Assembly: GCA_958296125.1 (NCBI GenBank)
Contig: OY282444.1
Coordinates: 5,069,266-5,133,265, forward strand
DNA from: an uncultured Poribacteria bacterium
GTDB lineage: Bacteria; Poribacteria; WGA-4E; PCPOR2b
Direction of reading: 5' to 3'
DNA: 64,000 nucleotides
The notes below the pieces were generated by a model. It saw only the letters and a list, made by a program, of their open reading frames with translations. It made no database searches and was not told the origin of the DNA. Of this stretch, positions 36,608-44,687 are shown piece by piece; position 1 is the stretch's first letter, and every line of letters begins with the position of its first letter. The position numbers and the translations under genes are program-made.

Positions 36608-39600
36608 TCAAAATCTCTGTGACAGAAGTAAGATGGGGATAAAATTACGTTCTTTCCGTAACGCGCGCGCAACTTCAAACCGAAGGGCAACGGACGGATT
36701 ACCGAGGAAGAGAGACAATCCAACTCCAACCGATGTATTGAAACGGTTGAATCTGAGATTTTCATCATCGAACCAAGCGTATCCTGTATCCAAGAAAGCT
36801 GCTACCGCCCCTAAAGGTCCTTCACTTTCATCTAGATATCTGATTTTCCCAAAATGGATTCGGTATTCCACATTGAAGAGGAGCAGATTGTCCCCGACGA
36901 ACTCTTTGAAATCGTAACCGCGTAAGGCACTGATTCCGCCTAGATAGAGCAGGCGTTGTCTAGGAAGCGGTCCATTGGAGAACCCCCCTTCCAGACGAAA
37001 GTCCAGATGATGGTTGTTCAACAGTTGATTATCGCGCATAATTGTAAAGCGATACAGGTTAAAATCAAAGTCGCTTTTGAGTTTTTCATCTGCATATTCG
37101 AGGGAGAAATTCCCCCGCCAACCGCGCTTGGTGCGGTAATCTGGTATTGAGACCGTCCAAAAATTCTGCATTTGAGGTGTCGGAGGCTTTCCGCTATTGA
37201 AATGATAGCCCAGAGTTACGCTACGCAAATTGCCCTCGTCAATTCGCAGATTACTTCGTTTTGGGATGTTTTTATTAAACATACTCCAATCGGTTGACTT
37301 AAATAAAGTCTCGTGGTCTTCATCAGTAAATTCCAACGTAATGTCCATTGATTGCGATAACTGACCCTTTACCCGAGCCTGATACCCCTTGCGCTGGTAG
37401 TAATCCAAAAAGGTGTACCCAAAGAGGAGTGCGGCAAGGAATTCTTCGCCTTCGGACAATCCAGTATAGTCGTTAGTATCTGTCCGTTGGTAAATACCTC
37501 CACCAATGCTCAGAGCGTGATCATCAAACCAAGTCTTTTCAGCCCCTAGTTGATAATTCCAAATTTTGCTTGACAATCCGTTGCTGACCTCCCCATAGAT
37601 TTGCGCGTTCGCCTCTAGGGGCGAAACCGCTCCACCTCCGCCTAAAATTAAGCCGTGTACGCGGTTAAAGTCGAAGACGGGTCGCCAATTCACGTTGATT
37701 CGCGATCGCTCCTCAACCTCAATGGCAAGCACGTTCCGCTCCCCTTCTCGCTTCACCTCCCAGCTTTTGATGTTCTTGAAGTAGAGGTTATTTTCATTGA
37801 GCTTTGCACGCATCTGATTGAGGCGCGTCGTGCCAATCTGTTTGCTATAGGCATCTCCCTGCTTGAAACCGAGCGCATTAGTCAGCTCTGCGCGCTTAAT
37901 TCGACGGTTTCCAGAAAAACGGATGTCGTCCAAATGCCCTTCCTCAACCTCAATCAACAGCTGGGTGTCAGCGAATCGATAGGTGACCTGCACAAGGTCA
38001 TACCCATGATGCCTATAAAGGTTTTCAATCAGTTGGCATTTGATGGTCAGTTTTTCGATTGAAGTGCGCCCTGGCTTCAACCCAAATGCTTTGTGCAGGA
38101 ATGGAGATATAAAGTATCTGTTTCGGTGTAAATCCAGGCGTTTCACAACCCCCGTTGGCACTTCGGTCACATGGATACGCAAATTCACTCTAAAGATAGG
38201 GATTGGTGGCGGTTCATCGCGAGTATCCCCGGCACGTGGCGCGCCAGTCTCTGGTGAATTGAACCGTCCCCTGACGGACAATCCGCCGGGTATTTCAACG
38301 TTCTCCTCAACGGCATCGCTTGTCTCTAGACGCACCTCGCGAAACCAATCGAGTGCTTCCAGTTCACGGTTGAGCCACGTCAGCTCGTCGATCGAGATAA
38401 GGTCGTCCGGCTGGAAGGGGAGTTTCTCAAGCAGTTCTGCTATCGGAATCTTACTGTTTCCTTCAACTTCGATGGTGACGAGTGAGAGCTGTTCCACGGA
38501 TTCAGAGCCCTGTGAAGGTTCAGAATCTTCCGTCTCAGTTAAGCGTATAACACCCAATCGATCGGGCCAATGGGGCCACCATGGACGAATTTCGTCGTAA
38601 GTAGGTGACCAGTAGCTGTAGTTGGTGCTCGGCTTCAACGAAGATTCAGTGGGCTGACCCCGCATTTTGCGATGTAGGTTAAAACGCCAATTTTCGGATG
38701 AGGTAGCCTCAAGCGTATCACGCGGCAACGCAACCTCCACGCTCCAAAAAGTCGGGGCAATCTGCGTTTTAACTTGGGCGCGGGAATCCCAAGCGGGTTT
38801 TGCCATTCTTTCATAAGCAGTTTCAAGGTCGGAATCCGACGAATCCTCCGCCTTGATGTGCTGATCAAAAACCACACCAATCGGGTTGATAACGAGATGG
38901 TGGTAGGTCGGGGTGTCCGGATTCGGATCCACTAGGATTTCTAGCGCGTCATCAAGCCAAACCGCTGAATCTGGGTTGGTTTGTGTGATTTGAACCCGCT
39001 TCATCTGTGAATCATACATCCTAGCACCGATATAGAGATACTGCTCATCCCACAGAAGAAATCCTTGTGTCTGTTCCTTTGGCTGCGTGGTTGCATCTGC
39101 CTGATAGAAGGGGGAAAGTGGCACCGACTTTGCCCAAGCTTTCTCAAATAAGTCACCATCAATTACCGGTTGTAAGGACGCGCGAGGGATGTCAACTGTC
39201 GGCGGTGGGGTCAAATCGTCTTCAGCGTAAAGATTATCGATTTTCGCCTCACTATCGTCCACTTTGGATTCAGTGGAAACAGATTGAGAGGGTCGAATGG
39301 TAATCCCCTGACTTGCGGTCATTTGAATCAGGGGGCCGCCATCGTTGATCCAACCTTGGACGACATCTCCCACATAGGCGGTCTCAAGTTCCACCGGCAG
39401 ATCAATAGTAATGGCGCGTTGGTCTTTGTTTTCGACCTGTATCTCGAGGTCCGCCGGGTAGCTTTCTGGGGTGTGCAACCAAATGGCTCCGTCGCGCGCA
39501 TTGAGAATCATTTTGGCCGCAATCTCGTCCAAAACCACAAGATTTATTGAACCGGACTGCGTCTCAAATGTGTTGGTGCCACCGATCAAGAAGATCTGTC

Positions 39601-40297
39601 CGTAGATTCGCCCTTCTTGAGTGCTGACCTGATATTCTCCCATCACTTTATCGAGATGAATATGGCCGACCGTTGTTGTCAAAACCATGTTGCCGCGGAT
39701 GCCGTGTACCCGAATATCCCCAGATTCTGCTTTGATTTTGAGAAATAGATCGGGAGGCGTTTCAATGAAACAGTCTAGACGCGTCAATTTGGCATCTGAA
39801 TCGGGAGATTCCGGAAGGCGTGGGGTCAACAGCAGGATATCGTCCTTCGTGGAAATGTCCAGTTGCACCGCGTTGAGGTATGTTTGGACAATTCCTTCGT
39901 TGCCCCCTGTCCCATGCTTTTCAAGTTTGACGGTGATTTCTTCCTGCGCCGCCGCCCTCACCTGCACACTCCCCGCGCAGGGCAACGCCATTTCAAGCCC
40001 ATAAACATTATCATAACTAATCTGTTGTGCGGAGGTTGAACGATACTGCGAGGTGTTCTGCTCAGAGTCAGTTGGTGTAACCGCCTCTTCGGCTCCGGTT
40101 TCGTTGCCCCGATACCTTGATAGGAGGTCTCTAACCTTTGGGTTTGGGATAGTAGTAGCTACAGTTTCATTTCGAGCGTCTGCAAAGCTGACCCCAACAA
40201 ATCGCGACAGGTGCTGCTGGTCCCCTGTCCCTGCATCAATAATGCTATAAAACAGGCAGATGTAGAAGATGAGAACAGGTCTTGTGATGGTAGGCAT
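36608..40297 (-). CDS. adhesin-like / CBM9-like / POTRA / Omp85 barrel fusion protein
   Basis: A 1229-residue outer-membrane protein with an unusual order of domains. After a signal segment (residues 1-23), residues 90-340 resemble a DUF4097-type beta-helix (SGDIRVHGIRGNMVLTTTVG, TFETQSGSINLVV). Residues 375-585 look like a CBM9/DOMON carbohydrate-binding fold (PVIDGDLFEKAW, YLYIGARMYDSQM, WLDDALEILVDP, FWSVEVALP). Three POTRA repeats follow at about 605-660, 717-787 and 788-865. Residues 870-1229 form an Omp85 barrel with the conserved loop motif LRGYDF. Omp85 proteins insert or secrete proteins across the outer membrane. No BamA partners or secreted substrate gene lie nearby; the role is inferred only from the domains. 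The start is ATG 40297. Confidence 0.85.
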   Translation of the reverse strand: MPTITRPVLIFYICLFYSIIDAGTGDQQHLSRFVGVSFADARNETVATTIPNPKVRDLLSRYRGNETGAEEAVTPTDSEQNTSQYRSTSAQQISYDNVYGLEMALPCAGSVQVRAAAQEEITVKLEKHGTGGNEGIVQTYLNAVQLDISTKDDILLLTPRLPESPDSDAKLTRLDCFIETPPDLFLKIKAESGDIRVHGIRGNMVLTTTVGHIHLDKVMGEYQVSTQEGRIYGQIFLIGGTNTFETQSGSINLVVLDEIAAKMILNARDGAIWLHTPESYPADLEIQVENKDQRAITIDLPVELETAYVGDVVQGWINDGGPLIQMTASQGITIRPSQSVSTESKVDDSEAKIDNLYAEDDLTPPPTVDIPRASLQPVIDGDLFEKAWAKSVPLSPFYQADATTQPKEQTQGFLLWDEQYLYIGARMYDSQMKRVQITQTNPDSAVWLDDALEILVDPNPDTPTYHHLVINPIGVVFDQHIKAEDSSDSDLETAYERMAKPAWDSRAQVKTQIAPTFWSVEVALPRDTLEATSSENWRFNLHRKMRGQPTESSLKPSTNYSYWSPTYDEIRPWWPHWPDRLGVIRLTETEDSEPSQGSESVEQLSLVTIEVEGNSKIPIAELLEKLPFQPDDLISIDELTWLNRELEALDWFREVRLETSDAVEENVEIPGGLSVRGRFNSPETGAPRAGDTRDEPPPIPIFRVNLRIHVTEVPTGVVKRLDLHRNRYFISPFLHKAFGLKPGRTSIEKLTIKCQLIENLYRHHGYDLVQVTYRFADTQLLIEVEEGHLDDIRFSGNRRIKRAELTNALGFKQGDAYSKQIGTTRLNQMRAKLNENNLYFKNIKSWEVKREGERNVLAIEVEERSRINVNWRPVFDFNRVHGLILGGGGAVSPLEANAQIYGEVSNGLSSKIWNYQLGAEKTWFDDHALSIGGGIYQRTDTNDYTGLSEGEEFLAALLFGYTFLDYYQRKGYQARVKGQLSQSMDITLEFTDEDHETLFKSTDWSMFNKNIPKRSNLRIDEGNLRSVTLGYHFNSGKPPTPQMQNFWTVSIPDYRTKRGWRGNFSLEYADEKLKSDFDFNLYRFTIMRDNQLLNNHHLDFRLEGGFSNGPLPRQRLLYLGGISALRGYDFKEFVGDNLLLFNVEYRIHFGKIRYLDESEGPLGAVAAFLDTGYAWFDDENLRFNRFNTSVGVGLSLFLGNPSVALRFEVARALRKERNFIPILLLSQRF

Positions 40298-40570
40298 CCC
40301 CGGGTCACCTCAAGCTGAAAAACGGTATTTCCAACGCACTATAGTATTGGGCTGGCAGGTTTGTTAAAATGTTGAGACAGTTGGCGAATTCAAGCGGTCT
40401 TAGCTCACAATGCCCTTGGACGAGCGGCTCTCGTTTTGATCAATGGGGTTTCACACCAGAGTCTAACAGATAGTTCTGAAAGACCTCCAGAAAAGTGTCT
40501 GATAGCGAAAAGTTTAGCAGATCTCCCGTTGCGCGTCAAACAGATTTTTTCCCTAATATTTTTTGCTTGT

Positions 40571-40753
40571 GTTTTTAATGGAGTGCCCGTTCAGGGTTAT
40601 ATCCTTGAGGAACGTCCAGAGATTATCGGCGACGAATTGGAGCGGGACGTTCATTGGAAGGGAGGCAGCGATGTCAGCAAACTGGCCGGAACCCCGACCC
40701 GTCTGTGCCTTGCGCTGAAGGATGCAGACCTATTTTCGTTGCGTTTTCGCTAG
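40571..40753 (+). pseudogene. remnant of a glycosidase-type C-terminal beta-sandwich
   Basis: The last 60 residues of a frame opening at 40436 (FNGVPVQGYILEERPEIIGD, then RDVHWKGGSDVSKLAG and ALKDADLFSLRFR before the stop) match the C-terminal segment that ends many secreted glycosidase- or sialidase-like proteins of planctomycete- and poribacteria-type genomes, where GSDVSKLAGKPVRLRF...DADLYSLRF is standard. The upstream 130 bp encodes nothing related, so only the 3' end of the gene survives. It overlaps the stop codon of the convergent MFS gene by three bases. Confidence 0.6.
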
Positions 40754-42411: not shown

Positions 42412-44591
42412 TCAAGCCTTCTGTAAGTGCAGCACACTCAAACCGTAAACGATTACGCTCGGGAGGGTAAAACGAATCCGCGCCCCAAGTGTTTCGTGAT
42501 GCAGGACGACCGAATCTCGCTGCTCCGGATAGAGCCACTCAACCTTTTGCACCAGATAGCCAGCAGGCACTTTGCACTCCACTTCAACCCGACCGACCGG
42601 CTGAGGCGTTTCGATGTTTGCCCCCTCATCCTGCCGGTAGTTGACCCAATGCAGCACCAAAGCCTCGTGCCCTTTAGGCAACCAAGCGCGAACTCGGACG
42701 AACCATGGGGCATCGGTCTCTAGGTATGCTCCCCCAAGCAACCCTTCCAAATCCCTAAGAAAATCCTGCCCGAAAGGATCGTTCTCTATGAGCGGATATA
42801 CGGGTAATTGTAGGTCAGCCCTTACCTCCACTGAATCAGGTTCCCATTCTCCTCTTGGGATGTAGCACACTCCCTCCAGCTTTGAACTCTTACGGCTGTC
42901 GTCCGTTTGCATTTGCCAATCTGTTAGCAGACCTTCGGGGTAGGGCTGTCCGTTAAGCTGATATTTTCCGGTTTCTCCCGTAAAGATGAGTTTCCCATTG
43001 GGATGTAGCACACTCCCTCCAGCTTTGAACTCTTACGGCTGTCGTCCGTTTGCATTTGCCAATCTGTTAGCAGACCTTCGGGGTAGGGCTGTCCGTTAAG
43101 CTGATATTTTCCGGTTTCTCCCGTAAAGATGAGTTTCCCACCTTTTTCGACGAACTGCTTGAGGTGTGCCCCCTCCTCTGGGGATAGACGTTTCACATCG
43201 GGCAAGATGAGCGTGTGATAGTTAGCGGCACACTCAAGGAGTTGTTCATCGAGAACTATGTCGAAGAGCAGGTGCCTATTCTCCAACAACCGACCAATCC
43301 GCTTGAGCGGTTCCAGACAGTCGGCTTCCTCCTCTAACTCCGCGCGGCGCGGATAGATCAATGCTATCTGTGCCCAAGGTTGGGCTGGGTGCAGAAGGGT
43401 TTCGTGGTCGGCGAGAAAACGCTGATAGCGGATAGCGGGACCGTAGTAGTCCTCCACCGAGAAATTCAGATTTTCATCATAGCCCCAATGATATGCTAGT
43501 GCTGCGCCATGATTTGCTGCAGCTTCAGCAATCGACAACCGCAAGCGGCGGAAATCATATTTGTTAATCACAAAAGGCTTGCCCCCTCCAGCCGCATAGA
43601 TAAACCGAGCGGGCATTCCCATATCTGCCAAATAGCCGTGCTTGATGAAACTCATACCCTTATACCCGCCTTGGCTATACCAGATATAATCCTCATCTTT
43701 TGCCCATAACGCGCTCGGCAGGAGGCTGCGTTCGTCATGCGGTTGGAAATCGTATTTGTGATACCACTGTGCTAGCAGGAGTTCAGGCTTCAGTGAACGG
43801 CCGTGTGCAATAAATATTTCGTCTAGTGCCTCTTTGCGACGCAGGTGGGTTGCACGGTTGACGGTTAGCTGAAACCGTTGCTTCAGGTCCGCCGGACATT
43901 CTCGGCAGGGTGTCAGGAAATCTGTGACTTCAACGAGATCTCGTCTGCCAAAAATCCGTCGCAAATCTGCGCTGTCGAAGGCTTCCTGTAGCCGACCTTG
44001 CACATAATCTTGGCAATAGCGGCACCGGCAGAAGTTCTCGAAGTTATGATGCACATTGAATCCATCTATCCCCAACTCAATGGCTTTGCTCACCATCGGT
44101 TTCAGGGTGGCAAGCCAGTGCGGATTACACATACAACCGCTATACGTCAGATACGGCCGTCCTTCGATGTCCCACCGTCGCAACGACCTATCCGCGAGTC
44201 GCTGTTGGGCATCTTCTGCGCTGACACAGGGCGCAGTCCCTAGAAGGCCCTCGGTCCAGATTCTCTCCCAAGCACCGAATAGTCCCAGTCCCTTTTCGTG
44301 GTTTCCGTAGTGCCATGCCATGCTCATCTGCCCAACAACCCGCGCGCCAGCCCCTTGGAGTTGAGGGATGATTTCTGCCGCGCAGGCAAGATTTTCGCTT
44401 ACGCCAATTAGTGGCATCCCCACCCAGTGACGATTTACTTCAGGGTCATCCGCCAAACTGTAAAACATTGGACCAAAGGTTCCCACCTGCACAACCTGCA
44501 ACTTCGCCCTTCTCACATGCTCAACCAGATCTAACTGTTGCGGTATGCTCCAGTGTTCAGCCATGCGATTAAACCAGAAATTCTCTGCCAT
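42412..44591 (-). pseudogene. glycosidase-like TIM-barrel gene broken by a 143-bp tandem duplication
   Basis: Two minus-strand frames (44591-42924 and 43011-42412) belong to one gene. Translation starts at ATG 44591 (GGAGGAAAC upstream), reads a TIM-barrel hydrolase-like region (SGCMCNPHWLATLKPMV, DGFNVHHNFENFCRCRYC) and then a beta-galactosidase trimerisation-like segment (LILPDVKRLSPEEGAHLKQF, GGKLIFTGETG). It then runs through a 143-bp segment that is repeated exactly (42855-43140) and out of frame. Removing one copy restores a single frame of 2037 bp, 678 residues, with a beta-sandwich C-terminus. The intact protein would likely be a glycoside hydrolase-like enzyme. A family could not be fixed. 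An assembly error is possible. Confidence 0.7.
42855..43140. repeat. exact tandem duplication of 143 bp
   Basis: Copy 1 is 42855-42997 and copy 2 is 42998-43140; reading them side by side I see no difference. Both start TTGGGATGTAGCAC and end GAGTTTCCCA. The unit is not a multiple of three, so it shifts the frame of the gene that contains it. Perfect identity implies a very recent event or an assembly artefact. Confidence 0.9.
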
Positions 44592-44687
44592 GTTTCCTCC
44601 TTGATTACATTTTGGGACTGAAAGGGATTGGTGTTCAGTCAATGTGACTCACCTGAAGCCTAAGCTGCATCTTTTACTTTCTGTTGA

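Follow-up and report, generated by a model that had tools for sequence, protein, structure and literature searches.

A Toastrack-CBM9-POTRA-Omp85 fusion protein retained across nearly the whole phylum Poribacteria

A single protein of Poribacteria carries, behind a signal peptide, a Toastrack (DUF4097) domain, a CBM9 domain, three POTRA repeats and an Omp85 barrel. The fusion is ancient and has been kept stably in nearly all of the phylum. The gene lies in the window, that is, the whole stretch of 64,000 nucleotides analysed here (contig OY282444.1 of an uncultured Poribacteria bacterium), where positions 36608-40297 of the minus strand form one uninterrupted open frame of 1229 residues. The anatomy of the protein is firm, and it is a member of the Omp85 superfamily, distinct from BamA and TamA, for which we infer glycan binding and an accessory role in the biogenesis or homeostasis of the outer membrane. 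The survey of Heinz and Lithgow (2014) defined ten Omp85 subfamilies, and within its main text (PMC4104836) this architecture is not among them and the words 'carbohydrate' and 'Poribacteria' are absent; an earlier note on this DNA had called such a front unusual. Literature searches for CBM9 together with Omp85 (and POTRA), for Poribacteria with Omp85 and for DUF5916 returned no paper, while the architecture may already stand in protein databases as an unnamed one.

Domain anatomy and the CBM9 site

Pfam matches above cut-off were obtained for DUF4097 Toastrack (residues 186-276; 3.2e-6), CBM9_1 (residues 379-538; 3.9e-10), POTRA (6.3e-16) and Omp85 (PF01103, residues 910-1218; 4.8e-9). A profile of the POTRA and barrel parts matched BamA and TamA structures in the PDB (best 5.6e-26), with an alignment to BamA that spans the three POTRAs. 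The two motifs of the Omp85 superfamily are present, (V/L)RG(F/Y) of loop L6 as LRGY at residue 1125 and FxDxG as FLDTG at residue 1168, the D and G of the latter being invariant in 24 orthologues; both also occur in the short form described below and in the paralogues. Together, these matches bear out what had been read from the letters alone, namely a 1229-residue frame with three POTRA-like repeats and an LRGYDF-loop barrel, a CBM9-like part and a beta-helix-like part guessed to be DUF4097 (Table 1). Among the orthologues, most N-termini show a hydrophobic segment and several an A|Q-type end. Since the signal peptide (assigned by eye) is combined with a C-terminal outer-membrane barrel, the front domains should be periplasmic unless they are secreted, and the analogy with PlpD, taken up below, likewise points to the periplasm.

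Table 1. Features of the 1229-residue fusion protein and their positions in the window
Feature	Residues	Positions	Strand	Basis
Signal peptide	1-22 (approximate)	40232..40297	minus	Hydrophobic N-terminus, no lipobox, by eye
Toastrack (DUF4097) beta-helix domain	88-345	39263..40036	minus	PF13349 3.2e-6; glycines every 9 residues
CBM9 domain	376-590	38528..39172	minus	PF06452 3.9e-10; profile to PDB 1i82 1.7e-9
Counterpart of clamp Trp71 of TmCBM9-2	Trp447	38957..38959	minus	Tool alignment; W in 41/43 orthologues
Probable counterpart of clamp Trp175	Trp574	38576..38578	minus	Placed by motif, not tool alignment; W 41/43
POTRA 1, with variable insert	604-713	38159..38488	minus	Profile alignment to BamA POTRA
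POTRA 2	716-787	37937..38152	minus	Pfam; profile alignment to BamA
POTRA 3	788-866	37700..37936	minus	Pfam PF07244 790-864
Omp85 beta-barrel, C-terminal Phe	867-1229	36611..37699	minus	PF01103 4.8e-9; TamA and BamA structures
L6 motif LRGYDF	1125-1130	36908..36925	minus	Sequence motif
Inner-wall motif FLDTG	1168-1172	36782..36796	minus	Sequence motif

The Toastrack fold has been described as a single-stranded beta-helix linked to envelope-stress complexes, and protein docking has been proposed for its intracellular members (PMC11237479). In the poribacterial protein the glycines 193, 202, 211, 220 and 229 follow one another every 9 residues and belong to nine Toastrack glycines conserved in at least 80% of orthologues; five 9-residue steps among these nine would arise under random placement with p about 5e-5 (about 5 of 100,000). 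Such spacing is as expected of beta-helix rungs, judging from the sequence, and the Pfam match is stronger in an orthologue (L061, 1e-9, PF13349). The profile of this part had no relative in the PDB. Structure predictions with three sequences (the window protein, L031 and L032) reached mean pLDDT values of 45 and 29, with residues ~185-285 only at 74-90 as short repeated strands, and a fold search with these low-confidence models returned nothing significant. The 'adhesin-like' label once given to this part is not supported, the part being a Toastrack and no adhesin helix. While an intracellular location has been proposed for the Toastrack family, the signal peptide read by eye and the outer-membrane barrel would argue against it here; a docking role would be carried over to an exported domain by analogy.

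When the CBM9 parts of 25 orthologues were combined into a profile, it matched PDB entry 1i82, TmCBM9-2 of Thermotoga, at 1.7e-9. In TmCBM9-2 the sugar is held between Trp71 and Trp175, although sugar binding is not universal among CBM9 folds (PMC8280721). Trp447 aligned with Trp71. Close by, Glu453 falls opposite a Glu of 1i82, a chain whose numbering is, by our count, off by one. For the second clamp residue, Trp574 is presumably the counterpart of Trp175, a lead that comes from comparing the motif WxPT...WPH...G with the CBM9-2 tail. Each of the two tryptophans occurs in 41 of 43 orthologues, the glutamate in 40 of 43, and N471 and G582 in all 43; the stand-alone CBM9 proteins of the same genome have H or Y at the second clamp position. 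Because the putative clamp tryptophans are conserved, glycan binding by this domain is plausible on sequence grounds, while the conservation of these residues could also be structural.

Distribution in the phylum and a short form without POTRA

A frame of at least 1000 residues matching the fusion protein was counted among the listed rows in about 70 of 85 Poribacteria genomes, belonging to two classes. The long form is present in 7 of 9 genomes of its own family (f1), 2 of 2 of f2 and 56 of 59 of f3, the genomes without it in f1 and f3 being mostly fragmented or incomplete. Families f5, f6, f8, f9 and f10 contributed one long form each (f9 and f10 forming the other class), and no homologue was found in the six genomes of f7. 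All of Toastrack, CBM9, POTRA and Omp85 were detected by Pfam in the f9 member, whereas matches were below cut-off or missing for CBM9 and Toastrack in f8 and for Toastrack in f10, and the f5 protein had no significant CBM9 match. Pairwise distances of the four protein parts across orthologues are correlated at r 0.955-0.970, and the parts have therefore descended together. That a frame-preserving assembly error had joined two genes, a possibility raised in the earlier note, is accordingly out of the question for practical purposes, since the same join and domain order recur across these genomes and classes and the domains co-evolve; the fusion is real. A scan of genome contigs with the single protein matched two Poribacteria only, viral contig and plasmid collections held no relative, and a PHROGs search gave no match.

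The homologue of family f4 (L052, L053 and L054; three genomes, two genera) is 649-687 residues long and consists of a Toastrack followed by the barrel, with both barrel motifs retained and CBM9 and all POTRAs absent. Loss of POTRA was found in this family alone among those tested. In the barrel tree f4 is nested within the long-form clade (support 96/97), L052 being a long branch and the branching order within the clade not settled, and a search of the f4 genomes for a separate CBM9-POTRA piece found other CBM9 proteins only. For these two reasons the short form is most simply read as a loss, and since f4 survives on Toastrack and barrel, the core, whatever its role, can do without CBM9 and without POTRA. 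In the sister barrel group (L040, L055, L041), DUF4252 or nothing stands ahead of the barrel.

The f4 variant is also the strongest evidence for a non-translocating scaffold or stress sensor, in which Toastrack and barrel would be the core that monitors the outer membrane and signals its condition, and CBM9 and POTRA would serve only to tether or stiffen this core. The short form retains exactly this core, Toastracks are tied to envelope-stress complexes (PMC11237479), and the sister clade has DUF4252 in place of the Toastrack. However, POTRAs are retained in all other families, both barrel motifs persist even in f4, and among the neighbours in the families compared no sigma, kinase or PSP gene is conserved; the explanation ranks second, with odds clearly on the short side.

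In all three f4 genomes the short form faces a convergent gene whose product has a Por sorting-type tail (L053:10974-17363, L054:3-6761, L052:8029-9759), which in L053 is a giant Big_9/cadherin-like protein. In 2014, poribacterial sorting tails were reported without Por genes, their route being unknown (PMC3909097). These observations could suggest that the fusion protein is the export channel for such proteins, but f7 genomes, which lack it, still have sorting-tail proteins, and every genome tested has a protein resembling SprA, the known type IX channel, so that this proposal is largely refuted and very improbable. As for the SprA/Sov-like protein itself, it has 2170 residues in the genome of the window (L079:1892-8404; G000:C1 near 1482193), matches TIGR04189 at 6.3e-42, below the equivalog cut-off, and SprA_N at 1.5e-7, and gives one match per genome in 12 of 12 Poribacteria genomes tested; the genome of the window has 32 Por sorting-tail matches.

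Omp85 paralogues and gene neighbourhood

The same genome encodes four further Omp85 proteins (L036, L037, L038, L039). Two of them, L037 and L036, score above the cut-off of the BamA model and have five POTRAs each, and L036, located downstream of the only TamB gene of the genome (TamB in L078), is BamA/TamA-like; L038 has three POTRAs. A single protein at L039:2869-5781 combines Peptidase_MA, a TolB-like propeller and an Omp85 barrel. Because the genome has each of these separately, the fusion protein is none of the BamA, TamB-linked, three-POTRA or TolB-Omp85 types, and in the barrel tree a 100/99 branch splits it from all four paralogues. It scores 62.9 bits against the BamA equivalog cut-off of 297 and has three POTRAs rather than five, and 31.7 bits against the TamA cut-off of 625, with the sole TamB gene adjoining L036.

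Two-partner secretion was considered in the same manner, in that the protein might be a translocase exporting an unlinked substrate. Its POTRA and barrel layout and weak FhaC/ShlB model matches to the barrel are consistent with this. Yet the ShlB score (15.1 bits, cut-off 22.7) is insufficient, the barrel is nearer to Omp85 than to TpsB models, there are three POTRAs against two in FhaC, and no linked exoprotein or cognate substrate gene was seen in any family compared, so that a translocase of this type is unlikely.

With respect to gene neighbourhood, in the own genus the fusion gene has an MFS gene on its upstream side and runs towards thiD and thiE in convergent orientation. The next gene in both f2 and f3 is gcvT, beyond which f3 has a DctP-type TRAP cluster. 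No neighbour is kept across the families compared, and therefore no cognate secreted protein travels with the fusion gene. Elsewhere in the window, positions 40436-40753 hold what is left, 105 residues, of a gene whose counterpart in the corresponding position of L032 and L047 has ~465 residues, and a 143-bp direct tandem duplication (99%) at 42850-43135, which may be a mutation or an assembly artefact, breaks the frame of a gene into 42924-44642 and 42412-43011.

Possible function and comparison with known systems

The explanation favoured here, at a probability of roughly 0.4, is that of an accessory protein of outer-membrane biogenesis or homeostasis with a glycan-holding and protein-docking arm. 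The barrel would be placed in the outer membrane, and the three POTRAs, CBM9 and Toastrack would form one long periplasmic arm, in which CBM9 most likely grips the end of a periplasmic glycan by its aromatic clamp and the Toastrack may offer a docking face for proteins. The POTRA-barrel part may then help to assemble or maintain the outer membrane beside the glycan anchor point. This reading is preferred because of PlpD, formerly taken as the type Vd model: its front domain was detected in the periplasm alone, and the protein has been proposed to act in lipid homeostasis (PMC11116518). Also counted in its favour are seven or eight other proteins of the genome (L069-L075, L066; about 690-820 residues) in which CBM9 stands ahead of DUF5916, a region that may be a barrel. 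Against it count f4, which lacks CBM9 and POTRA, and f7, which lacks the protein.

Export of the front domains was also weighed, with Toastrack and CBM9 as the passenger of a type Vd-like autotransporter moved to the cell surface. The signal peptide, front domains, POTRA and barrel reproduce the layout once named type Vd, and beta-helix passengers are common; however, the front domain of PlpD itself stays in the periplasm (PMC11116518) and f4 has a Toastrack without any POTRA, making such export improbable. Of the glycan-sensing or peptidoglycan-anchored insertion or secretion device envisaged in the earlier note, glycan binding stands as plausible given the kept putative clamp tryptophans, and a secretion role is not supported, with no cognate substrate gene among the neighbours compared. 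It is also unlikely, though worth stating, that the protein represents a new Omp85 class, neither insertase nor translocase, in the form of a phylum-wide glycan-coupled machine with a Toastrack-barrel core that is POTRA-free in one lineage.

In Omp85 fusions, nature itself has tested roles of the barrel beyond protein insertion or export. Here, an uncultured phylum retains an Omp85 protein whose arm probably binds a glycan and whose Toastrack is exported, and the natural variants of f4 make the function of an Omp85 barrel without POTRA directly testable.

When set against known systems, the poribacterial protein has in common with TamA and BamA the Omp85 barrel with both motifs, and with TamA the number of three POTRAs, but differs from both in its extra front of 500 residues and in NCBIfam scores far below cut-off. 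The WD40-type subfamily of Heinz and Lithgow (2014) likewise has periplasmic-type domains before the barrel, its front being a propeller, and its counterpart in the own genome is L039. A Toastrack fold is shared with LiaG and the Toastrack proteins of the PSP network (PMC11237479), which are proposed to be intracellular, whereas the poribacterial Toastrack follows a signal peptide and is borne on an outer-membrane barrel. The CBM9-DUF5916 proteins resemble the fusion protein in that CBM9 comes early in the chain and is followed by a long, possibly barrel-forming region, and differ from it in lacking POTRA and any Omp85 match. Finally, PlpD (PMC11116518), which among the well-studied Omp85 fusions comes closest, unites a signal peptide, an extra folded domain, POTRA and an Omp85 barrel in one chain, as is the case here, although it has one POTRA and an enzyme as its front, while the poribacterial protein has three POTRAs preceded by Toastrack and CBM9 and no known catalytic domain.
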